Virus record (IMG/VR): IMGVR_UViG_3300025138_010289
Span: 1 to 51,794 of that record
Length of the DNA stretch: 51,794 nt
From: a virus
Strand: one strand, 5' to 3'
Positions 11,799 through 28,872 of the stretch are shown here, piece after piece (the first letter of the stretch is position 1; the number at the start of each line of letters is the position of its first letter). Position numbers and translations under genes: made by a program. Under the pieces are notes generated by a model, which was not told the DNA's origin, made no database searches, and saw nothing but the letters and a program-made list of their open reading frames with translations.

Positions 11799-12533
11799 TT
11801 AAAATTCATCTTCTACTTTTCTTACAATAAAATATTCACTAGTAGTATTTTCAGAAGTAAAATTAAGTTTCATTAATCCCGTACTAGTTAAATGGATTTC
11901 TCCAGTATCCATATCTTTATTAGCGTACAATATAGATTTAAATAATTCTGAGTTAAATGGCATTTTAACCCCCAGTTCTGTTATCTCACCGGGCAGTTGG
12001 TAAGTAATTTTACTGTCAAATTCTTTAACATCCCCAAATACAAATCTACATACGTTATCCCCATCATCATTCGTAACAGTTTCTACAAACATATTATCTT
12101 CTTCTCTTAATGCATTCTTAGCTTTAATTAAGTTTTCTAGATCCTCTACTTCTAATGGTATTCTATTTTCCCATTTAGGGATATTAACTGTACCTACTTT
12201 ATCAATTAATAAAGGATCTCCTAACCTATATGTTAGATTAAAATTTGGATCTGATATTTTTAGCTTTGTTGGGATCAAATGGTTTTTTTCTAATTCTACT
12301 ATTAAATCCCCATTAGTAATAGAAATTAAATTTTGCAATTTTTTAGTATCAAAAATAGATAAATCACAATTTTCTAATTCAAATTCAGTATGTTCAACAC
12401 TCCCAATAACTTCTTTTGAAGGATCCATAAAATCAATTAGTACTGTATTATTTTTAATACTCCAATTAACTGATTGTACTATACCTAAATGGTATTTATT
12501 TATAATACTTTGTAAAACTAATTTATTTATCAT
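11799..12533 (-). CDS. 45: Sliding clamp, gp45-like
   Basis: 244 aa from the ATG at 12533, whose ATGA overlaps the polymerase stop, the best-coupled start; an upstream ATG at 12578 would overlap the polymerase by 49 bp. Sequence follows T4 gp45: ITNGDLIVELEKNHLIPTKLKI, SDPNFNLTYRLGDP, a central IPLEVEDLENLIKAKNAL helix and the C-terminal beta hairpins LTSTGLMKLNFTSENTTSEYFIVRK. T4 gp45 is 228 aa. It is a trimeric ring giving processivity to gp43 and, in T4, coupling late transcription to replication. Neighbour genes (polymerase upstream, loader downstream) agree. Confidence 0.88.
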   Translation of the reverse strand: MINKLVLQSIINKYHLGIVQSVNWSIKNNTVLIDFMDPSKEVIGSVEHTEFELENCDLSIFDTKKLQNLISITNGDLIVELEKNHLIPTKLKISDPNFNLTYRLGDPLLIDKVGTVNIPKWENRIPLEVEDLENLIKAKNALREEDNMFVETVTNDDGDNVCRFVFGDVKEFDSKITYQLPGEITELGVKMPFNSELFKSILYANKDMDTGEIHLTSTGLMKLNFTSENTTSEYFIVRKVEDEF

Positions 12534-13468
12534 AAGTTGAAAAATGTTTGTTGGTAAGGGTTTAAATTTAATGACCATTCTAAATCACTATAAAAACCTT
12601 CTAATTTATTTAATAATACACTTTCAAAAATTTTCTTTCTATCTGCATATTCCTCAATGAATGTACGCATTTTATCTGGGTAATCCCACTCTAAAAGAGC
12701 AATTGCTTCAATATTATATGGGTTTGTTTTTAAATAAATCCATTTAATTTTATCCCCTTGAGCTATTTCACTATGTACTCTATGTAGATTCCAAAATCTT
12801 AATAAATCATTGTAAATAATAGTAGCCTTAACTGCAGCAGGGGCGCCTTTACCTATTTTAGAAAATATTTCTCCCGATCTCGCTTTACGTTCAGTATATT
12901 TATTTAACTTTTTTACTGATGTAGGGTTAGCTAAATCTGATAAAGGGATAGTTCCATCTAATATATCGGTTCTAAATTTCTTTACTTTAGCATCTAGTAT
13001 CTCCTTATCAACCCCCTCTAAAGAACTTAAAACTAATTCTTTAAAAAATTTACCAAATTTAGGTGGGAAGTTAGCTTTTTTAAATTCTAAACCTTTAATA
13101 TCAAACTTATTAGTTTTAATACCTTCTTCTCTAGTAATGTATTGTGTATACCTTCTAGTAGCCCTAATATAACCTGATCTTAATACACATTCATTTTTAA
13201 AGTCAATTCTTTGATTTTCAGGATTATGTTGATTAAATGATTGTTTAGTTATTTGTTTTAAAATTGGACCTACCATAGTTTGACTTGCAATAGCTAACTT
13301 TTCTGTTAAATCATCCTTCTCTTCATTTGACATTTTATCAAAATTAGGGTGGAGTTTCTTTAATAAAGGTTCTGCATGGAAATAATTACTATCAGTATCT
13401 ATATAGACACAATAATTATTTTTTTCTTTATCACATACAAATTCAGGTGTATCCTCTAAGTGCTTCAT
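12530..13468 (-). CDS. 43B: DNA polymerase gp43, C-terminal part (palm motif C and thumb)
   Basis: 312 aa. VYIDTDSNYF at residues 21-30 is the family B motif C (DTD) found in the palm; the rest matches the thumb region by size. A TAA codon sits immediately before the ATG in frame, so it is an independently initiated polypeptide, not a readthrough product. Together with the 588-aa upstream part it makes 900 aa, practically the length of T4 gp43 (898 aa). The two polypeptides must assemble, since motifs A and B are in the other part. Split gp43A/gp43B polymerases are known in some Aeromonas T4-like phages. Confidence 0.9.
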   Translation of the reverse strand: MKHLEDTPEFVCDKEKNNYCVYIDTDSNYFHAEPLLKKLHPNFDKMSNEEKDDLTEKLAIASQTMVGPILKQITKQSFNQHNPENQRIDFKNECVLRSGYIRATRRYTQYITREEGIKTNKFDIKGLEFKKANFPPKFGKFFKELVLSSLEGVDKEILDAKVKKFRTDILDGTIPLSDLANPTSVKKLNKYTERKARSGEIFSKIGKGAPAAVKATIIYNDLLRFWNLHRVHSEIAQGDKIKWIYLKTNPYNIEAIALLEWDYPDKMRTFIEEYADRKKIFESVLLNKLEGFYSDLEWSLNLNPYQQTFFNL

Positions 13469-13499: not shown

Positions 13500-13760
13500 T
13501 TAATTCCATTGGTCTGGGTTGTGGGGTTTTGCTGGTTTTTCCCATTCACCTTTACTATTTCTTAATTGTTTTTCTGATTTCTTTATATCAAATACATAAT
13601 TTCTAACTTTAAGCTTCCCTCCTTGCTTTAGCATTTTTCTAAAATGAAGTTCTTCTTTTTCATTAAAGTCTTCTGCTATTTTTAGAATTTCTTCTTTAGT
13701 CATTTGAACATCATTTAAATAAATAGTATGTTCTTTCCTTATTGATTGTTTACTTAACAT
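13500..13760 (-). CDS. 86-aa ORF inserted between the two polymerase genes
   Basis: 86 aa, not recognised. Basic and helical: TIYLNDVQMTKEEILKIAED, EKEELHFRKMLKQGGKLKVRN, YVFDIKKSEKQLRNSKGEW. Starts inside the last codons of gp43A (ATG at 13760, gp43A stop at 13754) and ends 31 bp before gp43B. No LAGLIDADG, GIY-YIG or HNH motif is visible, so I cannot call it a homing endonuclease. It may be a remnant of the element that split the gene or a bridging subunit. Confidence 0.75.
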   Translation of the reverse strand: MLSKQSIRKEHTIYLNDVQMTKEEILKIAEDFNEKEELHFRKMLKQGGKLKVRNYVFDIKKSEKQLRNSKGEWEKPAKPHNPDQWN

Positions 13761-15520
13761 AATTCTAATTTTATTTTATCTTCCATTACATCATTAAAAT
13801 AATCATTTATGGCTTTAGCTGAGTCTTGGATTAATCTTTGACCTGTTAAAGTAATTGATTCTGCTAATAGAATATTTCCATATCTAAAAGCACCAAGAGC
13901 AGTAGCACCATATAAACTATTTAATAAAATCTTCATTGTATATTGCTTCATATGAAGTTGAGCTGCTAATTCTTTATTACCTGATTTTTTAGCTTCTTTC
14001 ATTTGGTTCTTATACATAACCCTTTCATTAAACCATTTTTTTAGAATAGTTGATAATACTGATTCAGTTTTAGAACTAAACATAACACCATTTGCTGATA
14101 TAGTCCATTTATTCTTTTCAATATGATGTATTAAATCCTTAACTTTTAAGGGGCGAGTTATCCCATCCTTATTGTTTTTATAACTAATAATACTTAATTC
14201 TTTATTTGAATCCATTTGTTTTAAATCTGATAGGGCATATCTACAATTCCAAACTTCTTTACCTTCATAATTAACCTTTTTTTCATTAAAGGGTAAATCA
14301 ACTCTACCTACCATAGTTTCATTTCCTATATTTACAGTCATTATGATAGTAGGATATAGTGAAGTGAAATCTAAATCAAACATATTATTATATATTCCTG
14401 CTTTAGGGCAAAATAAATAACCACCTGCATATGAAGGTTTATTACCATTTGGATCCCTTGGGGGCATTTTACCTTTTTTAGGTGGGATTATTCCTTTACC
14501 TAATAAGTAAGCAGATATAGCACCATCTTGTGTTTTAGTATTTGCATATACTTCCTCATAATTATGTTTACCCTTATGAGATAGATTTTTTACTAAAGAA
14601 ATATATTCTAACTTTTTATTAAGTTCAACTAATATTTCAACATCACGAAAATTGTATTGAATAAACTTATCAATGTCAGTTTCATATAATCTATCTAAAT
14701 TTCCTTCATAATCAACTTTCCCGAGTTTAACGTATTTTTCTCCTATAGCCTGCAGACGCATTGAAGGTTCATCGGCCCACGAAAATTTAATGTGTAAACG
14801 CATATAATCTAATGATTGTACACCACATATCTGTAAATATTGTCCTCCTCTTTCAGTTATTAACCAAGGTGTTTCTCTAATATACCCAATTGGTGAGAAA
14901 TATTTAGTAATATCTTTACCTAAAATTTTATTACATCTATGAACTAAATAAGGAATATCAAAATAATCACTATTCCAACCTACTATAATATCAGGTTCAA
15001 TTTCATTCCATTTAGTTATAAACTTACTAAGTAATTCTTTTTCATCACTACAAGATGTAATTATTTTATTTTTAAATTTTTTACTTGATATCTTATTATC
15101 TGGGTCTAAAATAAGACAACCCCATTCATCCCCCATATCATCGTAATAGGCAATAGATGTTACTTTTTTAGGAGCAGACCTAATATATTCAGGTGTTAGG
15201 GCATCTCCCATTTCAGTTTCAATATCAAAGTATAATATTTTATGAGTAGTAGATGTTTCATCATTAGTACCATATTTTTCAATTAAGAATTTTTGGTAAG
15301 GAGGCATATCATGAAAATGAATACCCTCAGATTCATTATTCCAATCAAGAGTCTTCATTAAAGGTTCATTTTTTAACCCTATATGTGTTGCCTTTGATTC
15401 ATCACATTCTTTATAAGCATGGTTCCTCCAATTTTCAATTTTTTCATGGCCCTCATCTGTCCATAAATCAATATTAAAAGAATTAAAACCTGATTTTCTT
15501 GCAAAACATTTTTTAAACAT
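13754..15520 (-). CDS. 43A: DNA polymerase gp43, N-terminal part (exonuclease and palm motifs A/B)
   Basis: 588 aa. Family B motifs in order: ExoI YFDIETEMGD (D99, E101), ExoII GWNSDYFDIPYL (around 181-192), ExoIII YNFRDVEIL (D293), motif A FDLDFTSLYP (D384) and motif B KILLNSLYGAT near the end. The protein stops after ESITLTGQRLIQDSAKAIND..., just before where motif C would follow; motif C is encoded in the separate downstream gene. This is the replicative polymerase with 3'-5' proofreading. Start overlaps the MazG-like gene by 8 bp. Confidence 0.95.
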   Translation of the reverse strand: MFKKCFARKSGFNSFNIDLWTDEGHEKIENWRNHAYKECDESKATHIGLKNEPLMKTLDWNNESEGIHFHDMPPYQKFLIEKYGTNDETSTTHKILYFDIETEMGDALTPEYIRSAPKKVTSIAYYDDMGDEWGCLILDPDNKISSKKFKNKIITSCSDEKELLSKFITKWNEIEPDIIVGWNSDYFDIPYLVHRCNKILGKDITKYFSPIGYIRETPWLITERGGQYLQICGVQSLDYMRLHIKFSWADEPSMRLQAIGEKYVKLGKVDYEGNLDRLYETDIDKFIQYNFRDVEILVELNKKLEYISLVKNLSHKGKHNYEEVYANTKTQDGAISAYLLGKGIIPPKKGKMPPRDPNGNKPSYAGGYLFCPKAGIYNNMFDLDFTSLYPTIIMTVNIGNETMVGRVDLPFNEKKVNYEGKEVWNCRYALSDLKQMDSNKELSIISYKNNKDGITRPLKVKDLIHHIEKNKWTISANGVMFSSKTESVLSTILKKWFNERVMYKNQMKEAKKSGNKELAAQLHMKQYTMKILLNSLYGATALGAFRYGNILLAESITLTGQRLIQDSAKAINDYFNDVMEDKIKLELC

Positions 15521-16163
15521 TATCTAATTCCTTTTGTGTAAAGAATTTAGTTAAATTAGGCCTAAAGTAATTTATTGATTTCATTACTTTACGATCTCTT
15601 GTTCTATAAACAACAAATCTAGTTCCTACCTGTTCAAAATGACATGGCTCAGCTTGTTCTTTAGCACGGAGGGTGACAGTTTCCATTGCTTCTTTCTCAG
15701 TGAGGCAAGACTTAGACATATTTGATTCTTGTACTTCTTGATAGGCTGGCCATATCTTATCCTTAAGGCCATGTAACATGGTGCCGTTCCCAAGGGAAAC
15801 ATAAGCAATATCACACAAAGCATCCAAAACTTCCACGATGTCTCCGTTTTCGCAAGCTTGTCTATATTCTTCCAATTCTTCAAGTATAAAGTCGTATACG
15901 AATTGCCATTCTTTTTTTTCCGGTATTGTTGGTTCATAATTATTAGGTTTACCAAACGTTCTATTGAATTCTTCTACTTCGTTTACAAAATCAACATCCG
16001 TTTGCATTTCAGGATAGAAATCTAATTGTGTTTGATTGACATCCATTCCTGTTAGTTCCTTATAGTAAGGATTTATTTCCCCAGTTTGGGGATCATATTT
16101 AGGTACCTGATATACTGTATCTTTAGTTTGTCGGTACTCATCTAGTGATCTATTTCTATTCAT
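15513..16163 (-). CDS. MazG-like nucleotide pyrophosphohydrolase
   Basis: 216 aa. The central QFVYDFILEELEEYRQACENGDIVEVLDALCDIAYV carries the all-alpha NTP-PPase signature E..E....-D...D of the MazG/HisE superfamily. An about 85-residue N-terminal extension and a C-terminal region (SKSCLTEKEAMETVTLRAKEQ, GTRFVVYRTRDRKVMKSINYF) are also present. Such proteins hydrolyse (d)NTPs to monophosphates; in phages they may clean the dNTP pool or alter alarmone levels. Situated between FolE and polymerase. Substrate not predictable. Confidence 0.75.
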   Translation of the reverse strand: MNRNRSLDEYRQTKDTVYQVPKYDPQTGEINPYYKELTGMDVNQTQLDFYPEMQTDVDFVNEVEEFNRTFGKPNNYEPTIPEKKEWQFVYDFILEELEEYRQACENGDIVEVLDALCDIAYVSLGNGTMLHGLKDKIWPAYQEVQESNMSKSCLTEKEAMETVTLRAKEQAEPCHFEQVGTRFVVYRTRDRKVMKSINYFRPNLTKFFTQKELDNV

Positions 16164-16166
16164 AAC

Positions 16167-16862
16167 TTATATATTATGCCCTCCGTTGTTAATCTTTAGG
16201 CTGTCAAAAAATTCTTTTCTAGCTAAATTGTCATTTTCTCTAAACACACCTGAAGCTTTAGTTGTAACCATTGCTGCTCCTTGATGTTTAACTCCTCTAC
16301 AGCTAACACAATTATGTGTTCCTACTATAGTAACAATAACACCTCTATTACCTTCTGTAATCTTATCTACAGCATTGTGTATTGCTGATGTTAATTGTTC
16401 TTGTATTGCTCCTCTTCTACCAAATAATTCAACTATTCTGTTTAGTTTTGATAATCCAATTACTTGTCCTTTATCTCCTGCAATATAACCAATATGAACT
16501 ACACCTCCTATTGTTTGGTGGTGATGTGAACACATAGATGTTAAAGGAATATTTCTTTCTATAATAATACCATCATAACCATCAGATGGAAATGAAGTTA
16601 TTGGAGACATTTGATTATATCTACCTGCCCATAAATCGTTTACATATGCTTTAGCTACACGTTTTGGGGTTTCCATTGAATTTGGATCATTTCTCCAATC
16701 ACATTTCAAAGCATCTAAAAATTCACCATAAGCTTTAGTAGCTTTTTGTATCATTTCATCTTTATCTTCTTGTTTTAAAGGGAATCCAGGTGCAACTCCA
16801 TTTGCAAAGCCTTCTTGCACTACTTCTAACTCTTCGTGAATTTTTCTTCGTTTGTTTTCCAT
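16167..16862 (-). CDS. folE: GTP cyclohydrolase I (FolE)
   Basis: 231 aa from the ATG at 16862 (MENKRRKIHEE). A longer frame from 16934 exists, but its first codons lie in a full promoter match (16904-16935), so the short form is chosen. Active-site and zinc residues are present: PLTSMCSHHHQTIGG (Cys/His), VIGLSKLNRIVELFGRR, QEQLTSAI and THNCVSCRGVKHQGAAMVT (second zinc Cys). It converts GTP to dihydroneopterin triphosphate, the first precursor for 7-deazaguanines and for folate. With QueD/E/C downstream the former role is likelier. Confidence 0.94.
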   Translation of the reverse strand: MENKRRKIHEELEVVQEGFANGVAPGFPLKQEDKDEMIQKATKAYGEFLDALKCDWRNDPNSMETPKRVAKAYVNDLWAGRYNQMSPITSFPSDGYDGIIIERNIPLTSMCSHHHQTIGGVVHIGYIAGDKGQVIGLSKLNRIVELFGRRGAIQEQLTSAIHNAVDKITEGNRGVIVTIVGTHNCVSCRGVKHQGAAMVTTKASGVFRENDNLARKEFFDSLKINNGGHNI

Positions 16863-16903
16863 ATTTTTAATTTTTTTAAGTGGTGTTTTATTCACTTTCG
16901 TAT

Positions 16904-16935
16904 TAAATATACGATAATTTTTTAATATTTCCAAA
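16904..16935 (-). promoter_or_regulatory. Predicted promoter for folE
   Basis: Minus strand: TTTGG (16935-16931), 19 nt ending in ATCG, TATATTTA (16911-16904); leader of about 40 nt to the ATG at 16862. Exact match to the consensus shared with the gp44 and 23739 promoters. Confidence 0.72.
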
Positions 16936-17118
16936 TTAACTTTGTCTATAATCTAAAATAAATCCTATTAATACTATAAGATTCATTCCTATTGATGCTC
17001 CTATTTCATGCAAATCATTATATACATTTGTTGATAAGTGGATATGTCCTACTATCCAAAAAGGTATAGCTAGATTTTGACTTATCCATATTAAGGTAAA
17101 CTTAATAAATTTACTCAT
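16936..17118 (-). CDS. Small membrane protein
   Basis: 60 aa. Two hydrophobic stretches (FIKFTLIWISQNLAIPFWIVG and SIGMNLIVLIGFIL) suggest two inner-membrane spans joined by a short polar loop containing His residues. Overlaps the stop of the upstream 85-aa membrane protein by 4 bp. Function unknown; the pair could be a membrane-targeted host-takeover or superinfection factor, but nothing in the sequence decides this. Confidence 0.7.
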   Translation of the reverse strand: MSKFIKFTLIWISQNLAIPFWIVGHIHLSTNVYNDLHEIGASIGMNLIVLIGFILDYRQS

Positions 17119-17372
17119 TTTAATTTTAATATTACGTTTACTGTTGAATACATTATACCTCCAAGTATTGCAACAGCAAATATTATTTGATTTGGTATTT
17201 CACCTCTTGTTGCTAGTACAAAACCACTTAAAAATATTAGTTTTAAAAATAAACTAGCATATACTATTGAATAACCTATATTGTTGAACTTTTTGAATAG
17301 TTTCATTAATAGGTTTGTTAACACAACCAAAAACGTTGATCCTGCTAAACCGTAAGCTAATGATATAACCAT
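17115..17372 (-). CDS. Small polytopic membrane protein
   Basis: 85 aa, almost entirely hydrophobic with three probable transmembrane helices (LAYGLAGSTFLVVLTNLLM, YSIVYASLFLKLIFLSGFVLA, IIFAVAILGGIMYSTVNVI) separated by short basic or polar loops. No recognisable family. Its start overlaps the preceding ORF by 1 bp. Co-transcribed with the small genes around it. Confidence 0.7.
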   Translation of the reverse strand: MVISLAYGLAGSTFLVVLTNLLMKLFKKFNNIGYSIVYASLFLKLIFLSGFVLATRGEIPNQIIFAVAILGGIMYSTVNVILKLK

Positions 17373-17566
17373 TAATCTTCTACAAATTCTACGTCTCCGT
17401 AATCATCAATTGGTTTATCTCTTACTAGGTCCCAATCTGCATCATCTATGACTTCTTGTTGGAGATCTTCATCACCTGTTTTCCATTTTGTTAATTCTTC
17501 TTCTGTTAACACATATTCTTCCCATCTGAAGTTTGCGTAATTTACTGTTCTTGTTAATTTTGCCAT
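17372..17566 (-). CDS. Small acidic hypothetical protein
   Basis: 64 aa, strongly acidic (many D and E: TEEELTKWKTGDEDLQQEV, DDYGDVEFVED) with a Trp-rich N-terminal part (NFRWEEYVL). It begins 2 bp after the stop of a 56-aa gene. Acidic small phage proteins can act as DNA mimics, but there is no direct evidence here. Confidence 0.7.
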   Translation of the reverse strand: MAKLTRTVNYANFRWEEYVLTEEELTKWKTGDEDLQQEVIDDADWDLVRDKPIDDYGDVEFVED

Positions 17567-17568
17567 AA

Positions 17569-17739
17569 CTATATTTCTTTTATATCTAACTTTCTAATTA
17601 AATCTACCCTACCTGGGTATTTGTTTTGAAATCTTCTAATTTTACCAAAGGTTAAATCAGAAATAATCCTTGAGATACCACTGATGGGTATTCCATAATT
17701 ATTATAATTTGTAATTGAAATTTTGTACTTAGTTTTCAT
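17569..17739 (-). CDS. 56-aa basic protein
   Basis: A complete frame of 56 codons from ATG 17739 to TAG 17569: starts MKTKYKISITNYNNYG, contains ISRIISDLTFGKIRRFQNKY and ends RKLDIKEI. Basic and compact, not recognised. A promoter match (CGTGT-N19-TATATTCC) lies 13 nt upstream and the acidic 64-aa gene follows after 2 bp, so it is very likely the first gene of a transcript of small genes (56, 64, 85, 60 aa) leading toward folE. Confidence 0.7.
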   Translation of the reverse strand: MKTKYKISITNYNNYGIPISGISRIISDLTFGKIRRFQNKYPGRVDLIRKLDIKEI

Positions 17740-17752
17740 AACCGTTTTGGTG

Positions 17753-17784
17753 GGAATATACGAAAAATAAGTGAATAATACACG
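17753..17784 (-). promoter_or_regulatory. Predicted promoter for the small-gene operon
   Basis: Minus strand: CGTGT (17784-17780), 19 nt ending TTTCG, TATATTCC (17760-17753); 13 nt leader to ATG at 17739. Confidence 0.55.
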
Positions 17785-17791
17785 TTATTTT

Positions 17792-17995
17792 TTAATTACT
17801 TAATGCTCTCACCTGAAGTACTGTGTCAATCATTTCTAACTGATCTTCACATTCTATTAATTTAAGGAAATCATCATTGATATTAGATAATCCCATTTGG
17901 ACTTGTTTGGATTGTTCGAGTTTGATTAGTTTAAATGCATCTAAACGATTTAGCATGCAAAGATATTTTTCTTGTTTCAAACTTAATTTTACCAT
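17792..17995 (-). CDS. Small hypothetical helical protein
   Basis: 67 aa, not recognised. Likely two helices with Leu/Ile spacing (LKQEKYLCMLNRLDAFKLIKLEQ and DDFLKLIECEDQLEMIDTVLQV). Its layout recalls the 74-aa ORF at 7116-7340 but identity is too low to claim kinship. Overlaps the stop of the 130-aa membrane/coiled-coil gene by 7 bp. Confidence 0.7.
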   Translation of the reverse strand: MVKLSLKQEKYLCMLNRLDAFKLIKLEQSKQVQMGLSNINDDFLKLIECEDQLEMIDTVLQVRALSN

Positions 17996-18381
17996 TTACG
18001 TTTTTTCGGAACTTCTTTAATAATTACAGTTGGCTTTCGTTTTTTTAATAATTCCATTTGCTTATTTAATTCTGCAAATTTATCATCTTTTTCAGTACCA
18101 TCTTTAAGCATTGTAGATGTTATTTTAACTTCTTCTCTTAATAAATCCTGAGATTCTTCTAAAATTTCTACTCTTTCTTCTAAATTTATAATCATCTTCT
18201 CATTCCACTCTTCTCTAAGGTCATACTCTAACCTTTCAATTGCGGCTTTAGGTTCTGATTTAGCAATTTCTATATCAGCTTGTAATGTATAATACATTCC
18301 TACAAATGTAGATGTAATCATTACTATTGCTATTATTGTTTTTAAATCTACTTTAATTTCTGTATTTTCTCCTATTTTCAT
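17989..18381 (-). CDS. Membrane-anchored coiled-coil protein
   Basis: 130 aa. One N-terminal transmembrane helix (about residues 13-33, LKTIIAIVMITSTFVGMYYTL), then a long predicted coiled coil (AAIERLEYDLREEWNEKM, LEERVEILEESQDLLREEV) and a basic C terminus ending PKKRKW. Single-span anchor plus coiled coil fits a spanin-like or membrane scaffold role, but it is far from the lysis genes. The upstream gap of 78 nt holds a late-type ATATTTATCA element. Confidence 0.7.
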   Translation of the reverse strand: MKIGENTEIKVDLKTIIAIVMITSTFVGMYYTLQADIEIAKSEPKAAIERLEYDLREEWNEKMIINLEERVEILEESQDLLREEVKITSTMLKDGTEKDDKFAELNKQMELLKKRKPTVIIKEVPKKRKW

Positions 18382-18423
18382 CTTCTCTTTTTATGTTAAA
18401 CGTGTAACATAACTCTTATTCGG

Positions 18424-18433
18424 TGATAAATAT
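18424..18433 (-). promoter_or_regulatory. Late-type promoter element candidate
   Basis: ATATTTATCA on the minus strand in the 78-nt intergenic gap, 42 nt before the ATG at 18381; same as the element before the sheath gene. No gene shorter than the track limit is seen in this gap. Confidence 0.4.
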
Positions 18434-18459
18434 ATAAATGAAAATTTTAGATCATAAAT

Positions 18460-18885
18460 TTAAATATTTACCTTGTAATCTTGTATAGCTTTTGAATCTT
18501 CTCTCTCCCAGGGGTATTCTATCCAGTTTGAATTATCCCATTTTTTAGCATATAAAGTAGGTTTAAAACATGAAGTATGAGGTTTGTAATGTAAAACTGC
18601 TGTTTTAAGGTTAAAAGGATAAGAATATAATGTTTGATATTTATTTACTAATTTGTCTAAGGTTTCTCCGCTATCACAAATATCATCAACTATTAAAGTA
18701 TTGGGGCCAATATCTCCTTTAGTCATAGGCATTCCTAATTTATGAGATAACATTACAGCTGGTATTAAACCACCTCTTTGTAAACCATATATATTTTCAA
18801 ATTTATCATCACTAACTTCAATCCGATATGATAGTCTGGATATTAGCTTATCTATTTGGTCCCAATCTATTATTATTTTTTTCAT
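18460..18885 (-). CDS. Type I phosphoribosyltransferase
   Basis: 141 aa. NIYGLQRGGLIPAVMLSHKLG and the PRPP-binding loop TLIVDDICDSGETLDKL (residues 63-79) identify a PRTase, most like the compact xanthine/hypoxanthine-guanine phosphoribosyltransferase group. These attach ribose-5-phosphate from PRPP to a purine base. In the neighbourhood of 7-deazaguanine genes, purine salvage supplying GTP is a possible role. Overlaps the nuclease gene by 4 bp. Confidence 0.85.
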   Translation of the reverse strand: MKKIIIDWDQIDKLISRLSYRIEVSDDKFENIYGLQRGGLIPAVMLSHKLGMPMTKGDIGPNTLIVDDICDSGETLDKLVNKYQTLYSYPFNLKTAVLHYKPHTSCFKPTLYAKKWDNSNWIEYPWEREDSKAIQDYKVNI

Positions 18886-19457
18886 TTTATTAAATATTCT
18901 ATCCAGTTTGTACCTGTTGTATTTTTATTAGGAAATTCAAATACTTTAGTTATATCTCCCATTATTATTGTTTTTTTAAAACCACTAGGTATAGTAGCTC
19001 CACCTTTTACTTTCTTTAAGTTACCTTCAAATAAAACATCTACCCTTACCTTAACTTCTTGTTCAAAAAAGTTAGCTAAACTTCTTTCAAATGATTCTAA
19101 TCTTGCCCATTGTCCTCTATTTAATCCTTCATGTTGTAAAGCTGAATTTAAATATGAAAACGTTTTAAGTAATGTTTCTTTATCACAGTTAAATGCTGCC
19201 GCAGGTGCTAAATGACCTTTATCATAGATGTTATCTTTATAATCTGCATCATCTGATGTTTTTATTCCTTTAGGGGTCCAAAAATTCATACCTGTTCTTT
19301 CAGCATGTCCATTTGGACATTGTATTGTATATTCTAACCATAGGGGTTGTTCATATTTTTCAGAATAATTAACTGTAAAAATATCTGTTTTTATAATTTG
19401 ACTATAAGTTATAATACTACTAAGGATTAAAACTAATGTTATTTTTATTTTACGCAT
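18882..19457 (-). CDS. Exported DNA/RNA non-specific endonuclease (NucA/EndoG type)
   Basis: 191 aa. An N-terminal signal peptide (MRKIKITLVLILSSIITYSQ, basic start, hydrophobic core, cleavage probably near Tyr-Ser/Gln) precedes a beta-beta-alpha-metal nuclease: DKGHLAPAAAF at residues 79-89 is the DRGH motif with K for R, and LNRGQWARLE follows with the metal-site Asn region. This family cuts DNA and RNA without sequence preference using Mg. Export to the periplasm or outside is unusual for a phage nuclease. ATG overlaps the stop of a 44-aa ORF. Confidence 0.88.
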   Translation of the reverse strand: MRKIKITLVLILSSIITYSQIIKTDIFTVNYSEKYEQPLWLEYTIQCPNGHAERTGMNFWTPKGIKTSDDADYKDNIYDKGHLAPAAAFNCDKETLLKTFSYLNSALQHEGLNRGQWARLESFERSLANFFEQEVKVRVDVLFEGNLKKVKGGATIPSGFKKTIIMGDITKVFEFPNKNTTGTNWIEYLIK

Positions 19458-19584
19458 TTTGTATGTATTCTTCTAATTTTTCTATTAAATCTAATACTTC
19501 ATCTGGTTCCATAGTTATAGCACAGCATGTATTAACATTTTCTTTTACTTCTTCTAATATTTCTAATGCTTCTTCTTTAGACAC
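19450..19584 (-). CDS. 44-aa acidic peptide, GTG start
   Basis: Open frame from a GTG at 19584 that overlaps the queE stop, ending in a TAA (19452-19450) that overlaps the nuclease ATG. The peptide is acidic and helical: SKEEALEILEEVKENVNT, then CCAITMEPDEV and DLIEKLEEYIQNA. The gap-free overlaps on both sides support translation, but the GTG start is a choice; the only in-frame ATG would leave 20 residues. Confidence 0.55.
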   Translation of the reverse strand: MSKEEALEILEEVKENVNTCCAITMEPDEVLDLIEKLEEYIQNA

Positions 19585-20347
19585 CTCTTTCTGTATCAAA
19601 TGCAATGATGTGGTCTCTGCCTGTCATATTATATCCCTTTTCAGCACACAATTCAAATACTAAAGGATACATTTTTACTAATGTTTCTCTTGTATCCCCA
19701 GCAGGCATTATATAAGTTTTATCTTTGGGTATTTCCATATCTACCCTAAATGCCTCAATTTCTTTTAGATTTTCATCTGTACCATCCCATACAGGTTTGA
19801 AGTGATAATCTTTATGGTATGCAATTGTTTTACTAATAGCTTCTTTATTTAATCTAAGTCTATTATGCACTTTAATCATTCGTTCATCGGCGACAGCCCC
19901 ATTAGGTGTAACAGCGCCAAGTACAGGCACACTATTACTAAATTTAGGACTAAGGCTAATAAGATCCAAAGGGTGGTCTGTTTCAAGAAAATGAGAACCT
20001 TCTGTCTCAATTGTAACCAAAATGTTTCTTTCATTTGCAAAATGTGTTATTTCATTTACTAAAGCAGGATGCATTGTAGGCGAACCGCCAGTAAGCATCA
20101 TTTCTTTTACATGGGGATTGTCATCATATATTTTAATAATATCATTAAAGGTAAATGTACCTTTTTCTGGGTGTATACTTGTATACCAAGAATCACACCA
20201 ACCACCATCTCCAAAATAACATCTATGAGTACATCCTGTAGTTCTAACCGCAATAGTTGGTCTACCAAATCTGCTACCTTCACTTTGAACACATCTGTAT
20301 AATTCTAATACTGGTAACACTTTGTTATAATCTTCTATTCTTTTCAT
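19577..20347 (-). CDS. queE: 7-carboxy-7-deazaguanine synthase QueE (radical SAM)
   Basis: 256 aa. YRCVQSEGSRFGRPTIAVR then GCTHRCYFGDGGWCDSWYT supplies the 4Fe-4S cysteines (C39, C43, C51), here spaced CX3CX7C instead of the usual CX3CX2C. Then MLTGGSPTMHP and VTIETEGSHF, typical of QueE (SAM-binding GGE-like strand and ETxGs). It ring-contracts 6-carboxytetrahydropterin to CDG. Separated from queD by three tRNA genes, all on the same strand. Confidence 0.92.
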   Translation of the reverse strand: MKRIEDYNKVLPVLELYRCVQSEGSRFGRPTIAVRTTGCTHRCYFGDGGWCDSWYTSIHPEKGTFTFNDIIKIYDDNPHVKEMMLTGGSPTMHPALVNEITHFANERNILVTIETEGSHFLETDHPLDLISLSPKFSNSVPVLGAVTPNGAVADERMIKVHNRLRLNKEAISKTIAYHKDYHFKPVWDGTDENLKEIEAFRVDMEIPKDKTYIMPAGDTRETLVKMYPLVFELCAEKGYNMTGRDHIIAFDTERGV

Positions 20348-20371
20348 TTATTTTTCATTTATTATTTACTG

Positions 20372-20443
20372 TACTCCGTAGGGGAATCGAACCCCTGTTT
20401 TATGGATGAAAACCATATGTCCTAACCCCTAGACGAACGGAGC
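20372..20443 (-). tRNA. tRNA-Glu (anticodon TTC)
   Basis: 72 nt cloverleaf on the minus strand. Acceptor GCTCCGT pairs with ACGGAGT; anticodon stem TATGG/CCATA around loop TTTTCAT gives anticodon TTC (codon GAA); T arm AGGGG-TTCGATT-CCCCT. Discriminator A, CCA not encoded. Confidence 0.93.
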
Positions 20444-20448
20444 ATTAA

Positions 20449-20522
<74 letters not shown>

Positions 20523-20535
20523 TTTGGTTTTATCG

Positions 20536-20606
20536 TTATCGGGGAAGGATTCGAACCTCCGTTCATGGTACCAAAAACCATTGTCCTGCCTCTAGACGAC
20601 CCGATA
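20536..20606 (-). tRNA. tRNA-Gln (anticodon TTG)
   Basis: 71 nt. Acceptor TATCGGG/CCCGATA is perfect; anticodon stem ATGGT/ACCAT around TTTTGGT gives TTG (codon CAA); T arm GGAGG-TTCGAAT-CCTTC. Discriminator A, CCA not encoded. Only 6 bp after queD. Confidence 0.92.
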
Positions 20607-20612
20607 ATAAAA

Positions 20613-21077
20613 TTATTCACAATAATAAGCTGCGTTTTTACCGTGTTCCATAAACTTAACTTTAGTAACTCTTACTCTACCTTCAGTTTCTGTATGGACA
20701 AAGTCATTTAACTTATTAAATATAAACTCTGAAAATTTTTCTGCTCCTGTAGCTGGTATTACTCTTAATTGAATTACTCCTATCCCATCCATTGTTTTCC
20801 AACCACCCATTCCAGGATCATCTTCGGCTATTATAACAGTATGGTCAAACATATAATCCATCCATTCTTTAGGTTGTTTACCTTCTATAAGTGTTTTAGC
20901 TCTTTTCATACCACCAAAATCCCATACCCAATTTTTTTCATCTAATTCACCTTCAAAATATACTTTAAATGAAATACCATACCCATGTAAAAATTTACAG
21001 TGTGTATCTTCTGCTTTCCATTGACGGAACACTGTACTAAATCCGTCAAAAACTTTACTTGATTGAAATTTACCCAT
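20613..21077 (-). CDS. queD: 6-carboxytetrahydropterin synthase, QueD family
   Basis: 154 aa. FSTVFRQWKAEDTHCKFLHGYGISFKVYFEG, then NWVWDFGGMKRAKTLIE, DHTVIIAEDDPGM and VTKVKFMEHGKNAAYYCE follow the T-fold 6-pyruvoyl-tetrahydropterin synthase pattern in the HGYG variant, common in phage and alphaproteobacterial QueD homologs, where the classical HGH zinc motif is altered. It converts dihydroneopterin triphosphate (from FolE) to CPH4, the QueE substrate. Overlaps thioredoxin by 8 bp. Confidence 0.87.
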   Translation of the reverse strand: MGKFQSSKVFDGFSTVFRQWKAEDTHCKFLHGYGISFKVYFEGELDEKNWVWDFGGMKRAKTLIEGKQPKEWMDYMFDHTVIIAEDDPGMGGWKTMDGIGVIQLRVIPATGAEKFSEFIFNKLNDFVHTETEGRVRVTKVKFMEHGKNAAYYCE

Positions 21078-21339
21078 TATACCAGTCTTTTAATTGTTGA
21101 AGTGATTTTCCACCACCTTGTATTCTTTTTATTTCATTTCCATCTAAATCAGTTATGACTAAAGTTGGAACAGATTTTATAGCATATTGTGTAACTAAAG
21201 TAGCTTCATAATCTGTATTTATTTTTTTAATAGGAATCCCACTATTTTCTAATTGTTCCATTTTAGGTCCTAATTGTTTACAAGGTCCACACCATGGAGC
21301 TGTAAAATATAATATTCCTTTTTTAACTTGTACTTTCAT
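21070..21339 (-). CDS. Thioredoxin
   Basis: 89 aa, a short thioredoxin with the canonical YFTAPWCGPCKQLGP active site (WCGPC, residues 16-20) and the cis-Pro loop SVPTLVITD. A cytoplasmic disulphide reductant; it may regenerate the phage class I ribonucleotide reductase encoded at 27163-29862 (C-terminal Cys pair in NrdA). Overlaps QueD by 8 bp. Confidence 0.94.
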   Translation of the reverse strand: MKVQVKKGILYFTAPWCGPCKQLGPKMEQLENSGIPIKKINTDYEATLVTQYAIKSVPTLVITDLDGNEIKRIQGGGKSLQQLKDWYNG

Positions 21340-21355
21340 TTTTACTTATTTTATT

Positions 21356-21511
21356 TTAAACTAATTCTTCTACTATACCTATTGCTTCACTAGCTACTAA
21401 AATAAGCATAGCAGTTACTAAACTAAATGGTATAAAACAATAACCTAATATTCTTATACTTGATTTAATAAAACTTACTAATTGATGTTTTTTTGCGTCT
21501 GGTTGTTTCAT
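21356..21511 (-). CDS. 51-aa single-span membrane protein
   Basis: Complete frame from ATG 21511 to TAA 21356: a polar start MKQPDAKKHQLVSFIKSS is followed by a hydrophobic stretch IRILGYCFIPFSLVTAMLILVA and ends EAIGIVEELV. One transmembrane helix. It sits immediately after QueC (ATG overlaps the TAA region of queC, 21513) and 16 bp before thioredoxin. Unknown function. Confidence 0.65.
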   Translation of the reverse strand: MKQPDAKKHQLVSFIKSSIRILGYCFIPFSLVTAMLILVASEAIGIVEELV

Positions 21512-21512
21512 A

Positions 21513-22430
21513 TTACATATTATTTACCATATCAATGGTATCGTTCATATTAGGATTATTTGCATACTCATCCAATAATTTTTGAACATGAGATTTTGCA
21601 ATTTCATAACCTACAACTCCTGTTTCATCAGCATATACTACAGGGTCAGGTCTTCCTAATTTTAAAAATGCTTCTATTCTTTCTACTGATGATGCTGATT
21701 TGTAATCTGAATACCAATTTCCTTCTCCAGTATCAGACCAAGGGTGAGGTATAAAAACAGGTTTGTATGATGTATTTGTTCTTTTATAAACTTCATCAAA
21801 ATCAATTCCTAATTCTTTACAACATACTTCTCCATCTTTTAAAATATCAAATTTATCTCCATCTAAATAAGGTGTGTATAATCCTACTCTTTGAGCATCC
21901 CAATTACCTTCAGCAAATGCTTTATAATCCGCATCTCTAAATTCTTGTCTACAATCAGGGTAAATTGCATGATCTCCAGCATGTATGCCCATTGCTATTT
22001 TTACTGCTGATTCTGTTTTATTAGCGATTGATAACGCTACAGATTGTATTAGTGATGAGAATATTTTATTTCTATTAGGCACTACGGTTGCTTTCATATT
22101 ATCCTCTTCATAATGTCCTTCAGGCACATCATCTCCACCTTCTACTAGAGCTGAATCTAATAATGATGTTAAACCATCTAATTTAATAGACTGATATGTA
22201 ATAGGCTCAAAATTATGTTTAATAGTTTCTCCTAAATCATTTTTAGCTAAAGTTTTATCTGCCTTGCTGTTTAAATAATCTACTAATTCTTGTGCCCTTT
22301 CTAATTCGACTCTATGTTTTTGACCATAATCAAAACTTAGAGCTGTTACTTTATAATCGTTTGCTAATAGGTGAAGTAATAGCGTGCTACTATCCATTCC
22401 ACCACTTAAACTTAATACTGCTTGTTTCAT
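21513..22430 (-). CDS. queC: 7-cyano-7-deazaguanine synthase QueC (variant)
   Basis: 305 aa, versus about 230 for typical QueC. PP-loop LSLSGGMDSSTLLLHLL (SGGMDS 9-14), SFDYGQKHRVELERA, TVVPNRNKIFSSL and AIYPDCRQEFRDA are clear QueC elements. In most QueC a C-terminal CX...CGxCxxCxxR zinc site follows; here that region reads TNTSYKPV and YKSASSVERIEAF, with Ser/Ala in place of the cysteines. It should convert CDG to preQ0 with ATP and ammonia; loss of the zinc site may mark a variant activity. Overlaps the DpdA-like gene by 4 bp. Confidence 0.9.
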   Translation of the reverse strand: MKQAVLSLSGGMDSSTLLLHLLANDYKVTALSFDYGQKHRVELERAQELVDYLNSKADKTLAKNDLGETIKHNFEPITYQSIKLDGLTSLLDSALVEGGDDVPEGHYEEDNMKATVVPNRNKIFSSLIQSVALSIANKTESAVKIAMGIHAGDHAIYPDCRQEFRDADYKAFAEGNWDAQRVGLYTPYLDGDKFDILKDGEVCCKELGIDFDEVYKRTNTSYKPVFIPHPWSDTGEGNWYSDYKSASSVERIEAFLKLGRPDPVVYADETGVVGYEIAKSHVQKLLDEYANNPNMNDTIDMVNNM

Positions 22431-23221
22431 GTTTTTGGTATAAATGTTTTAAATAATTGTATATTGTAAATTGCTGTTTCCCAATGCTCAGCTTCTCCTT
22501 TAAATTTATCTACCTTAGTAGATATTTTGTTATTTAACCCCCAAGGTTCATATTTTATTCCTGATAAACCATGTATAACTGGGTTTGAAGTATCTATTGT
22601 TTTTATAAATGGCATATTTTTATACCATTTAAATTCCTGGGGTATGTTGCAACCTAATAAATGTATTCTATCTGATTTTGATATTGTATTATCCTCATAT
22701 AATTCTTTTATAAAATTATACCGGCCATGGGCTTTAGTTACTGTTATATTTTCTGTGGTTTTAGAAGTAGTTTTTCCATTTTCATAATACCAATCAGCCC
22801 CATAACTAAATGCTATTTTTTGATATCCTTGATGTTTTAATATATCATAACATTCTCTGGATTCATTTTTATTTTTACCTTGCACTACAGCCATAGGAGT
22901 AGTATTTTCAGGATATATTTTATTAATCCATTCTTTAGCTGATACTAACGTTGCTGTTTTATCCTGCCAATAATCAGGTACTATAAACTCATCAGGTTTG
23001 AAATAATATAACCAATGTGCCAAACGTTCTTTATCATATGGATGTCCTAACTCATGTAAGGAGTTATCCATAATAATATACCGCCCCATTTCTTTAGATT
23101 CTTGAAAATATTTTACATAATCTTCATTTTCATCTAACATATGGGGGAGACAATAATCATAATCAATTAATCCCCTAACTTGTTTCATATAGGGTATTGG
23201 TGCTTCGTGTGATACTTTCAT
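22427..23221 (-). CDS. DpdA-like (TGT-related) DNA transglycosylase candidate
   Basis: 264 aa. The TIM-barrel transglycosylase pattern of tRNA-guanine transglycosylase is visible in order: IIMDNSLHELG (D52), PMAVVQGKNKNESRECYDIL (the VVQG strand, 112-115), HLLGCNIPQEF (the G-x-x-x-P substrate loop) and TIDTSNPVIHG (D210, aligned with the catalytic Asp of TGT). DpdA proteins exchange guanine in DNA for preQ0-type bases in phages and dnd-like islands. It sits 4 bp overlapped with queC. No zinc-binding CxCxxC-H of tRNA TGT is seen, in keeping with a DNA-type enzyme. Confidence 0.72.
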   Translation of the reverse strand: MKVSHEAPIPYMKQVRGLIDYDYCLPHMLDENEDYVKYFQESKEMGRYIIMDNSLHELGHPYDKERLAHWLYYFKPDEFIVPDYWQDKTATLVSAKEWINKIYPENTTPMAVVQGKNKNESRECYDILKHQGYQKIAFSYGADWYYENGKTTSKTTENITVTKAHGRYNFIKELYEDNTISKSDRIHLLGCNIPQEFKWYKNMPFIKTIDTSNPVIHGLSGIKYEPWGLNNKISTKVDKFKGEAEHWETAIYNIQLFKTFIPKT

Positions 23222-23739
23222 ATAACTTTTCTTGGTCTTCCTCTTGTTTCTAATCGTTTGTGTCTTGCTCCAAACTTATCTTTACAGTAATGATAATAAT
23301 CCTCTAGCGTACCTCCAAATTCTTCTATTCCTTCTCTTACTTGTTTACGAGTCATTCTAATAGAAAGAGAAAATTCTTTATATATGCTATTGAGTTTTTC
23401 TTGTTCGTCTTTTTCAAAATCAGCCCATAAACGTTGTCTTCGGGCACCATGGATTGAAGTTTTTTCCTTATATTTAACTGAGTCAGGCCAGACCTCATTA
23501 TGAATTTCATCCATTTCCATTTCTGTATATTTTGCCTGCCAAAAATAATGGGAAAAATCAAAGTCCCCATTTTGAATTTTATCTAATAAATCTGAATTTT
23601 TATGAAGGGGTTTATTTGGTGAATCAAATCGTCTCCACCATCTAAATTGGTTATAATTAAGTGGTTGTAATTTTGATATCTCTTGTGTAACGTGTTCTTT
23701 GTCTATGTTGAAAATGTATTGGGTTCTCAATTTATCCAT
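23218..23739 (-). CDS. Hypothetical protein with C-terminal AT-hook-like motif
   Basis: 173 aa, charged, helical, with many Trp/Tyr (QFRWWRRFDSPNK, YFWQAKYTEMEMDEIHNEVW). The C terminus ends ETRGRPRKVI, with the RGRP core of AT-hook minor-groove binders. The middle (LSIRMTRKQVREGIEEFGGT) resembles a small helix-turn-helix. Could be a DNA-binding regulator or a companion of the DNA-modifying enzyme just downstream (4-bp overlap). First gene of the dpdA-like/queC/thioredoxin/queD transcript, with a perfect promoter 4 nt upstream. Confidence 0.75.
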   Translation of the reverse strand: MDKLRTQYIFNIDKEHVTQEISKLQPLNYNQFRWWRRFDSPNKPLHKNSDLLDKIQNGDFDFSHYFWQAKYTEMEMDEIHNEVWPDSVKYKEKTSIHGARRQRLWADFEKDEQEKLNSIYKEFSLSIRMTRKQVREGIEEFGGTLEDYYHYCKDKFGARHKRLETRGRPRKVI

Positions 23740-27162: not shown

Positions 27163-28872
27163 CTACCCTTCACAAGAAATACAATCTGCTACACGGGATC
27201 CTAAATCTCCTTTAATAACTGAGTCAGTTCGTAAATAGTATAGTGTTTTGATGCCTAATTTCCATGCCTCTAAGTGTACTTGATTTATCCACTTTGGAGA
27301 ATCTGTTGGATCAAAACATAAATTTAATGATTGGGTTTGATCTATATATTTTTGTCTAATAGCTGCTTGTTGAATTAAACCTAATTGATTTACTTCTGAA
27401 AATGTTAAAAATACTTCTTTATCAGATTCGCTTAGTATATTATTTGATAGATTCTGTACTGAACCATTATCAACTAAAATTGAATCCCATACCTTTTCAG
27501 TATCATGATCATTTTCTTTTAGTTTTTTTACTAATTCTGGGTTTTTAACTATAAATGTACCTTTAGCTCCATTAAATGTATAAACATTTGCGGGTTGTGG
27601 TTCTATTCCTGCTGAACATCCCGATATTCTAGAATTAGATACTGTTGGTGCTACCGCCAATAAATGAGTATTTCTCATACCTGTTCCTTTACACCATAAA
27701 GGTTCTCCATATTCTTCTGCTAATTCACGAGATGCAGTTTCTGCTTTTAATTTTATTTGTGAAAATACCGTATGAGTCCAGGCAGTTGATGCAATAGAAT
27801 TAAATGGTAGATTTTTCTTTTGTAAAAACGTATGCCACCCCATTACACCTAAACCTAATGCTCTACCTTTTTTAGCATGTCTGTGGGTTCTAATCATTGA
27901 TTCTTTACCATTAGTTTTTTGAATAAATTCTTCCATTATACCATCAAGAAAATAAATAGCGGTTTCAACTACATCTGTATCTTTCCATTCATCGTATTTA
28001 GCTAAATTTAAACTTGATAAACAACATATAAAACTATGTTCTTCATCTGTATGTAATGTTATTTCAGAACAAATATTAGTCATTGACACATCTAAATTAT
28101 TCATTAAATAAGCCATTGGATTATCCTTATTAACATTATCTTTAAACATTATGTAAGGTTCTCCAGTTTCAACTCTTGATTTTAAAATTTGCATCCAAAG
28201 ATTCATTGATTCTGGATCTCTATCATTTAACCTTCTCATAAAGGCATCATCTACTACTATACATTGGTGTAAGTTTAAACATTGTCTATTGGGATCACCT
28301 TTTGGTCTTCTAATTTGAAGATATTCACCAATATCAGGGTGGTTAATATCTAAATTAACACTAGCCGCTCCTCTTCGTACACTTCCTTGGTTTGTAGCTA
28401 TTATAGTTGAATCATATATTTTAGCCCATGGAACTACTCCTTCTGATTTTCCATTTCCTTTAATAGTTGAACCTCTTTCTCTAATTCTTGATAATGAAAT
28501 ACCTACTCCACCACCTTGTGAAGTAAGTTTCATTAATTCTGCATTAGTTAGTCCAATTCCTCTAATTGAATCCGGGGTATCAACACCAAAACATGAAATT
28601 GGTAATCCTCTATCTGTGCCTGTGTTTGATAAAACAGGAGAAGCTAAACCAATCCAACCATTCCAGATGTATTTAAAAAACTTACTTTCTAAATCAGGTC
28701 TACCTAATCTTGTTGCTACAGAGTTTGCTACTCTACGATATGCCTTTTTAGGTGTTTCATTTGGCAATAAATAACCTTTTGAGATTGTAGATAAGGCTAC
28801 GTCATTCATCCATTCAGGGTAATCTTTACCCTTTTCCCATTTTGTTGTATCTGCTACTAAGTTATTATCCAT
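27163..28872 (-). CDS. nrdA: Class I ribonucleotide reductase, large subunit
   Basis: 569 aa, shorter than E. coli NrdA (761): it starts at the catalytic core without an ATP-cone. The core is intact: LSNTGTDRGLPISCFG (C94, substrate disulphide Cys), SQGGGVGISLSRIRERGS, the active-site Cys region FICCLSSLNLAKY, RTHRHAKKGRALGLGVMGW and the C-terminal redox pair CISC (C564, C567). It makes dNDPs from NDPs for phage replication. Loss of the ATP-cone implies relief from dATP inhibition, common in phage enzymes. 3 bp downstream of nrdB. Confidence 0.96.
   Translation of the reverse strand: MDNNLVADTTKWEKGKDYPEWMNDVALSTISKGYLLPNETPKKAYRRVANSVATRLGRPDLESKFFKYIWNGWIGLASPVLSNTGTDRGLPISCFGVDTPDSIRGIGLTNAELMKLTSQGGGVGISLSRIRERGSTIKGNGKSEGVVPWAKIYDSTIIATNQGSVRRGAASVNLDINHPDIGEYLQIRRPKGDPNRQCLNLHQCIVVDDAFMRRLNDRDPESMNLWMQILKSRVETGEPYIMFKDNVNKDNPMAYLMNNLDVSMTNICSEITLHTDEEHSFICCLSSLNLAKYDEWKDTDVVETAIYFLDGIMEEFIQKTNGKESMIRTHRHAKKGRALGLGVMGWHTFLQKKNLPFNSIASTAWTHTVFSQIKLKAETASRELAEEYGEPLWCKGTGMRNTHLLAVAPTVSNSRISGCSAGIEPQPANVYTFNGAKGTFIVKNPELVKKLKENDHDTEKVWDSILVDNGSVQNLSNNILSESDKEVFLTFSEVNQLGLIQQAAIRQKYIDQTQSLNLCFDPTDSPKWINQVHLEAWKLGIKTLYYLRTDSVIKGDLGSRVADCISCEG

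Follow-up and report, generated by a model that had tools for sequence, protein, structure and literature searches.

Campylobacter phages of the Firehammervirus group carry the closest described system to the one treated here. In their DNA, 2′-deoxy-7-amido-7-deazaguanosine (dADG) reportedly reaches 100% (Crippen 2019, J Virol), and their transglycosylase, which allows complete replacement, was reportedly named DpdA3 (Cui 2023, NAR). Phages 9g, CAjan, Dp-1, and nt-1 carry DpdA or DpdA2, bacterial dpdA often lies inside a restriction-modification gene cluster, and up to ~32% of G is replaced in the phages measured (PMC6884629). Here, we describe a related module in the IMG/VR virus record IMGVR_UViG_3300025138_010289, a 51.8-kb record (51,794 nucleotides, possibly a fragment) that is hereafter called the window. 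Its folE, queE, queD, queC, and dpdA genes all lie on the minus strand inside 16167-23221, the strand that holds 31 of the 32 open reading frames (ORFs) of ≥180 amino acids (aa) in the window. Measured against the Firehammervirus work, the transglycosylase module belongs to a known kind.

The module very probably serves to insert a 7-deazaguanine by base exchange into phage DNA, the substrate that we infer. FolE, QueD, QueE, and QueC would make 7-cyano-7-deazaguanine (preQ0) from GTP, and the transglycosylase (22427-23221) would put preQ0 in the place of guanine once the phage DNA has been replicated, through an exchange of the type catalyzed by tRNA-guanine transglycosylases (TGTs). A catalytic Asp, by analogy D210, would bond covalently to the sugar while guanine leaves and preQ0 enters. 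A phosphoribosyltransferase (PRTase, 18460-18885) would return the expelled guanine to GMP, hence to GTP and new preQ0, and the product of the gene upstream of dpdA, orf173, may bring the transglycosylase to DNA. Taken jointly, the closed guanine loop, the two PRTase families in one slot, the zinc-free QueC, and the DNA-binding partner of the transglycosylase make up a picture that we put forward only tentatively.

The AlphaFold2 model of the 264-aa protein encoded by dpdA has a predicted local distance difference test (pLDDT) score of 93.4. In the fold ranking, for which a second aligner was run on the top Foldseek chains, TGTs came first and 7ui4, a bacterial DpdA of solved structure, was tied with them: archaeosine TGT 1iq8 gave a Z score of 17.6 over 233 residues at 2.9 Å, and 7ui4 gave 17.2 over 233 residues at 3.4 Å with 17% identity. 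By its predicted fold, the protein is a TIM barrel of the TGT type and a guanine transglycosylase. An earlier note on this DNA, made from its letters alone, had named a TGT-like enzyme; the top rows of the structure search were TGTs and DpdA, not another TIM-barrel family lacking the TGT Asp, and D52, D83, and D210 proved invariant. The window enzyme shares with 7ui4 the fold and the HLLG..P..F..SID motif, whereas 7ui4 has 436 residues. In the profile match, the conserved HLLG..P..F..SID..P stretch aligns to 7ui4; the best PDB sequence matches of the profile, the designed TIM barrels 7osv and 6z2i, cover short repeats and were disregarded. Searched by sequence only, the protein matched no Pfam family, reached 7ui4 at E 0.39 in the PDB by phmmer, and scored 14.8 bits (E 0.0095) against the NCBIfam DpdA model NF041059. 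Since the cut-off of this model is 200, the protein is not filed in the NCBIfam DpdA equivalog, and we assign it to the family by its fold, by its motifs, and by its homology to a phage gene that bears the annotation.

Conserved residues were read from an alignment of 57 proteins, comprising the window protein and 56 relatives; the latter were drawn from 82 proteins that passed a 240-300 aa filter, with rows >95% like the window removed and dereplication at 90%. L25, Y35, D52, N53, D83, R167, H187, L189, G190, D210, and N253 are invariant (57/57), Q114 is Gln in 55/57, and P194 is Pro in 56/57. The VVQG, GxxxP, and D210 motifs cited in the earlier note are all present. The pairing of D52, D83, Q114, and D210 with D102, D156, Q203, and D280 of Z. 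mobilis TGT is supported, not proven; D102 is named in the entry title of a fold-comparison match. For D52, Q114, and D210, the pairing comes from motifs and low-scoring alignments, which reach these three residues; for D83, it is putative. In these alignments, Q114 falls on IIQG and D210 on FDCV of E. coli TGT (probability 0.2%), and D52 falls on the Asp of LDSG in CAjan DpdA (probability 7%). Such single-sequence comparisons are not homology evidence alone and were kept as supportive only.

A tblastn search with the 264-aa protein at E up to 1 matched 27 of 50,697 phage records, some phages twice: 4 immuto, 15 Campylobacter, 5 Bacillus, and 1 each of Chryseobacterium, Vibrio, and Weizmannia. 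The protein is 37% identical to a protein of the Flavobacterium phage immuto annotated as DNA guanine transglycosylase DpdA. Homologues in Campylobacter phages such as CP220 (Firehammervirus) show 36-37% identity to it across 98% of its length, and this homology to the Firehammervirus enzyme classes it as a predicted DpdA3-like protein. The Campylobacter matches, one of the 15 found only at E 0.1, have no functional annotation, and the homologue is called 'hypothetical protein' in CP220 (gp056, YP_009169190.1, locus L009 14676-15452), MA9V-3, Youna2, BSP7, D479, phiST, and StAshley. These seven phages and immuto were examined, the Cellulophaga phage phiST and StAshley by way of the profile, and all eight hold preQ0-pathway genes. 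The Vibrio phage D479 does so less clearly and is less telling: folE is the one such gene in the vicinity, and its match to QueC is weak (E 6.4e-9). The QueC profile search found no match in phiST or MA9V-3.

Firehammervirus DpdA3 modules, as seen in CP220, resemble the window in joining QueD, QueE, and QueC to a small transglycosylase. In CP220, however, these genes lie far from one another and the search for a PRTase gave no match, whereas the window has one cluster with the PRTase between queE and folE, and orf173. Immuto (MW353175) has the same PRTase family as the window (54% identical), a MazG (73%), and a zinc-less QueC; it differs in having QueF and a formyltransferase-like gene near dpdA and in keeping its queC at a distance from the other genes. 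Phages 9g, CAjan, Dp-1, and nt-1 share with the window the preQ0 pathway and a TGT-like DNA enzyme, but they have no match to the DpdA profile of the window, no PRTase, and a QueC with four zinc Cys.

The module in the window consists of the following genes.

23218-23739, minus strand: orf173, a mainly helical uncharacterised protein with an AT-hook-like tail, RGRPRK; overlaps the dpdA start by 4 nt
22427-23221, minus strand: compact DNA-guanine transglycosylase, DpdA3-like, 264 aa, predicted from fold, invariant residues, and homology
21513-22430, minus strand: QueC variant without the four zinc Cys, 305 aa (PF06508, E 9.8e-36)
21070-21339, minus strand: thioredoxin (PF00085, E 8.2e-16)
20613-21077, minus strand: QueD, 6-carboxytetrahydropterin synthase (phrog_2389, E 2.6e-38; PF01242)
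20371-20606, minus strand: tRNA-Glu(UUC), tRNA-Ala(UGC), and tRNA-Gln(UUG) (ARAGORN)
19577-20347, minus strand: QueE, 7-carboxy-7-deazaguanine synthase (phrog_2076, E 6.9e-49)
18882-19457, minus strand: DNA/RNA non-specific endonuclease (PF01223, E 3.3e-25)
18460-18885, minus strand: xanthine/guanine-type PRTase, 141 aa (1vdm, E 8.9e-14; 4trb, E 1e-12)
16167-16862, minus strand: FolE, GTP cyclohydrolase I, 231 aa (PF01227, E 1.6e-42)
15513-16163, minus strand: MazG-like nucleotide pyrophosphohydrolase (PF01503, E 7.2e-11); adjoins folE

The end of orf173 overlaps the start of dpdA, and the end of dpdA overlaps the start of queC, by 4 nt each, so that the three genes may be translated together. 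Judged by homology, the preQ0 biosynthesis set is complete, with FolE, QueD, QueE, and QueC all found. QueD matches the Pfam family PTPS at E 1.4e-13. QueE, 68% identical to the immuto QueE, matches a PHROG family labeled 'QueE-like' and scores 28.7 bits against the Pfam Radical_SAM cut-off of 29.5. As with divergent phage versions, each of the four proteins is under its NCBIfam equivalog cut-off. The start of FolE is probably the ATG at 16862 rather than the TTG at 16934, the length of 231 aa being common among relatives. The Pfam and PHROG matches agree with the four pathway genes listed in the earlier note, whose span of 16167-23221 was too narrow: the module also takes in 23218-23739 and 15513-16163, and within the span the PRTase at 18460-18885 and the zinc-less nature of QueC had been overlooked, as had orf173.

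The solved purine PRTases nearest to the window protein are 1vdm and 4trb, followed by the xanthine-guanine PRTase (XGPRT) 1a95. Its phosphoribosyl pyrophosphate (PRPP) loop reads IVDDICDSGETL, a C-terminal WIxxPWE is common to it and 1vdm, and its score against the NCBIfam xanthine PRTase model is 49.2 bits vs a cut-off of 138. By the PRPP loop and homology, the product of 18460-18885 is a purine PRTase, for which the use of guanine is predicted.

The linkage of this gene to the pathway was counted over 86 loci, as are all locus counts below unless stated; the loci of relatives come from a profile scan of IMG/VR, with 80 loci kept from the matches listed. A DpdA relative is encoded in at least 584 IMG/VR records (584/599 among the pattern matches listed). 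By profiles built from the loci, QueE and FolE are both present in 37/86 loci, and a PRTase occurs in 33 of these 37, near-copies included, or in 27/31 after dereplication at 95% DpdA identity. The gene lies between queE and folE in 31/33 loci and within 200 nt of folE in 31/33; in the locus type of the window (L002), 1.8 kb of small ORFs separate the two. The QueE- and FolE-bearing loci without a PRTase are L008 and those of three distant phages, L010, L011, and L012. Two families occupy the slot, with 25 of the 33 loci holding a hypoxanthine-guanine PRTase (HGPRT) type and 8 an XGPRT-like type. Four proteins of the HGPRT type were tested against TIGR01203 and match it with E values no higher than 9e-28, each scoring below the 150-bit cut-off. 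In a quick dpdA tree with long branches and open forks, the PRTase type changes 5 times as drawn; given the starred branches, the HGPRT label must have changed at least twice.

Base exchange releases one guanine per base inserted. A guanine PRTase would make GMP, and GTP is the FolE substrate; to our knowledge, no other step of the pathway needs a PRTase. Salvage of the expelled guanine is most likely the role of the PRTase, as judged from homology and gene linkage. The occurrence of a PRTase in a transglycosylase gene set may be new, and word searches of 5.39 million Creative Commons (CC)-licensed papers, directed at the link between phage deazaguanine and PRTase salvage, showed no title on it among those listed.

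PRTase genes resembling those of the module are rare among phages. Of 50,697 phage records, single-sequence tblastn matched 18 with the HGPRT and 13 with the XGPRT-like protein; one of the 18 was examined and bears no annotation, and immuto, StAshley, BUCT-ZZ01, and phiST were examined among the 13. The XGPRT-like gene stands beside folE in StAshley (Brevundimonas) and between queE and queD in BUCT-ZZ01, and that of phiST lies ~20 kb from queE. The Synechococcus phage BUCT-ZZ01 keeps queE, XGPRT, queD, and folE together (L104 8081-10861), and no QueC match was found there, nor any DpdA by the window-family profile; the phage may have an undetected transglycosylase or put these genes to another use. 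The PRTase family PF00156 was found in 0/8 of 9g, nt-1, Dp-1, CAjan, HCTV-5, Boyle, phiSM, and Megan, eight phages that are also negative for the DpdA profile. A transglycosylase annotation was seen in CAjan among these phages, and those of 9g, nt-1, Dp-1, and Boyle, a member of the Rosebush group, are given in the literature (PMC6884629). PF00156 also missed the contigs G007, G009, and G010; because G010 holds an XGPRT-like gene by the profile built from the loci (L067), PF00156 misses some divergent XGPRT-like proteins. On the sequences compared, the PRTase link is strong in the clade of the window and recurrent in a few others.

Several observations weigh against the account given here. The sequence-only Pfam, NCBIfam, and PDB searches of the transglycosylase were empty or weak. 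PF00156 was found in 0/5 of CP220, MA9V-3, Youna2, BSP7, and D479, all of which have a DpdA3-like gene; salvage is therefore not obligatory, and the host could supply it. The PRTase link was not found in Firehammervirus, the one group reported to replace all deoxyguanosine. CP220 reportedly makes dADG despite a near-full QueC match, so that the base is not safely readable from the genes.

The lack of a PRTase in these five named phages also favors the view that the PRTase and MazG serve the general nucleotide metabolism of one phage group and are unrelated to the exchange, a challenge to the salvage step alone. Most PRTase loci do come from one related group of uncultivated phages, and the distance of the phiST gene from queE fits the same view. 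On the other hand, the slot switches between two PRTase families, PRTase genes also stand beside que genes in StAshley and BUCT-ZZ01, and matches to them are rare in the phage records. We regard this explanation as a real possibility that falls somewhat short of probable.

A pre-replicative entry of the base, by contrast, is highly improbable. In such a scheme, the PRTase would turn preQ0 or 7-amido-7-deazaguanine (ADG) into a nucleotide, a ribonucleotide reductase would deoxygenate the product, MazG would remove dGTP, and the polymerase would incorporate the modified nucleotide. A PRTase and a MazG-like enzyme do flank folE in many loci, and a ribonucleotide reductase is encoded at 27163-28872. 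However, the conserved transglycosylase with its invariant Asp would then be superfluous, and the PRTases resemble guanine, hypoxanthine, and xanthine enzymes. Crippen 2019 is also said to have found no dADG phosphate in infected cells, which counts against this entry.

With Cys at positions 24, 124, and 191 and nowhere else, the 264-aa protein lacks the CxCxxC zinc site of TGT. The TGT fold of this protein and the tRNA genes within the cluster could point to a queuosine-type tRNA modification in phage or host, with tRNA as the substrate of the transglycosylase, but the missing zinc site, the absence of QueF, the one later queuosine-pathway gene that the search covered, in the window and near relatives, the presence of relatives in phages reported to have modified DNA, and three cluster tRNAs that are not of the GUN type make this most unlikely. 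The earlier note was right that there are three tRNA genes and none of them GUN, although its GAA, GCA, and CAA are the codons and the anticodons are UUC, UGC, and UUG.

The QueC of the module differs from canonical QueC, whose zinc site is C(x)8CxxCxxC and whose motifs are SGGxDS, YxQxHxxE, VPxRN, and YPDC; E. coli Y189, in the zinc region, is essential (PMC13329287). The PF06508 match of the window protein stops before the zinc region, at 185 of 210, whereas that of CP220 covers 3-209 of 210. Among clade proteins of ≥220 aa, near-copies included, the four zinc Cys positions are occupied by S, D, S, and S in all 66 that span the region, immuto and the window among them, and two truncated rows miss it. 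None of the 66 keeps any of the four Cys, while all four are kept in 10/10 control rows (8 distinct proteins, from Youna2, BSP7, CAjan, phiSM, Dp-1, 9g, Boyle, and nt-1); for this reason, we class the protein as a variant rather than as canonical QueC. The four motifs are each present in 68/68 clade rows and, in the order given above, in 10, 8, 10, and 8 of the 10 controls. TSYKP is likewise present in 68/68, and its Tyr appears to be the kept counterpart of E. coli Y189. Since the motifs and this Tyr are kept, the clade QueC probably retains activity, its zinc region having been rebuilt. The replacement of the zinc Cys in this clade may be new.

No QueF was found in the window with PF14489, as the earlier note had said, and none was found in six contigs with a close DpdA (G001-G006, 8-93 kb) or in the 160.5-kb G008. 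QueF matches in BSP7, Youna2, and the 155-kb G007 fall within the related enzyme FolE and were discounted as cross-reactions. The search for product-forming enzymes covered QueF and formyltransferase domains, with ArcS and the amidotransferase (Gat) outside its scope, in records that may be fragments. The window has no formyltransferase domain; G005, the contig of L006 with a DpdA 79% identical to that of the window, has formyltransferase-domain matches at 13553-13837 and 14879-15124 and no QueF. Immuto has a QueF (PF14489, E 4.1e-15), and its gene set makes a base of the 7-aminomethyl-7-deazaguanine (preQ1) type the expected one there. For the window, we rejected a product of the immuto kind, preQ1 or formyl-preQ1, because no QueF was found in it or in near relatives. 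QueF needs preQ0. A zinc-less QueC that stops at ADG is disfavored because immuto has the same QueC plus QueF, and preQ0 is thus the likelier QueC product. Because no QueF was seen, 2′-deoxy-7-cyano-7-deazaguanosine (dPreQ0) is the most likely final base and on balance a probable one, dADG is less likely and somewhat doubtful, and any other base is improbable. The choice made in the earlier note, preQ0 or an amidated form, fits the absence of QueF in the window and near relatives. By analogy with other phages, protection from restriction is plausible but would depend on the enzyme: EcoRI and SwaI cut dPreQ0-bearing CAjan DNA completely and BamHI cuts it in part, while HaeIII leaves it uncut (PMC6884629).

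Relatives of orf173 occur in 48/86 loci and, without exception, lie upstream of dpdA and share its strand. The two genes overlap by 4 nt in 19/48, overlap or lie within 51 nt in 34/48, and are 129-1876 nt apart in 14; in loci without orf173, queD is often directly upstream of dpdA. F32, W34, R36, L45, N57, G58, D59, L104, and D107 never vary among 33 rows, and in 24 of these the C-terminus is a GR(P/K) stretch that resembles an AT-hook. The protein matched no Pfam, PHROG, or NCBIfam family, tblastn found 0 matches in 50,697 phage records, and its profile gave a marginal match to CP220 gp061 (E 0.022). Its PDB profile matches were at chance level and were discarded. The structure model has a pLDDT of 86.9, and the PDB matches of the fold search were all under Z 6 with none clear, which does not imply a new fold. 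From the tail and the coupling to dpdA, our guess is that orf173 may be a DNA-binding or targeting partner of the transglycosylase. Its association with dpdA may be new.

Other genes of the region accompany the module to varying degrees. The MazG-like gene is found with FolE in 31/38 loci with FolE, and in phiST an annotated MazG-like gene adjoins folE; a link of this enzyme to dGTP or GTP pools is possible. The thioredoxin gene is present in 33/86 loci by profile and 31/86 by single sequence, often beside queD, and a second thioredoxin stands beside the PRTase in some relatives. The endonuclease at 18882-19457, which has an apparent signal peptide, occurs in 8/86 loci and is no constant part of the module. 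Outside the module, a family B DNA polymerase is split in two genes, the first (12530-13468) holding the exonuclease and the first polymerase part and the second (13754-15520) the last part with YIDTDS, and a conserved 86-aa ORF (13500-13760) lies between them. The split is common to several relatives (e.g., L004, L020, and L082), and the polymerase is a single gene in others (e.g., L033, L036, L041, and L054).

If the salvage is true, it would explain how the exchange of many guanines, an extent that we infer, is affordable, since the waste would be the starting material. If the closed loop holds, the need for it would have been strong enough that two PRTase families filled the slot between queE and folE. 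The zinc-less QueC poses a question to enzymologists: what purpose the zinc site serves, if as many as 66 relatives manage without it. The locus also points to a transglycosylase enzyme that no Pfam family recognizes, and through it a large group of uncultivated phages, with at least 584 IMG/VR records, gains a predicted DNA chemistry.

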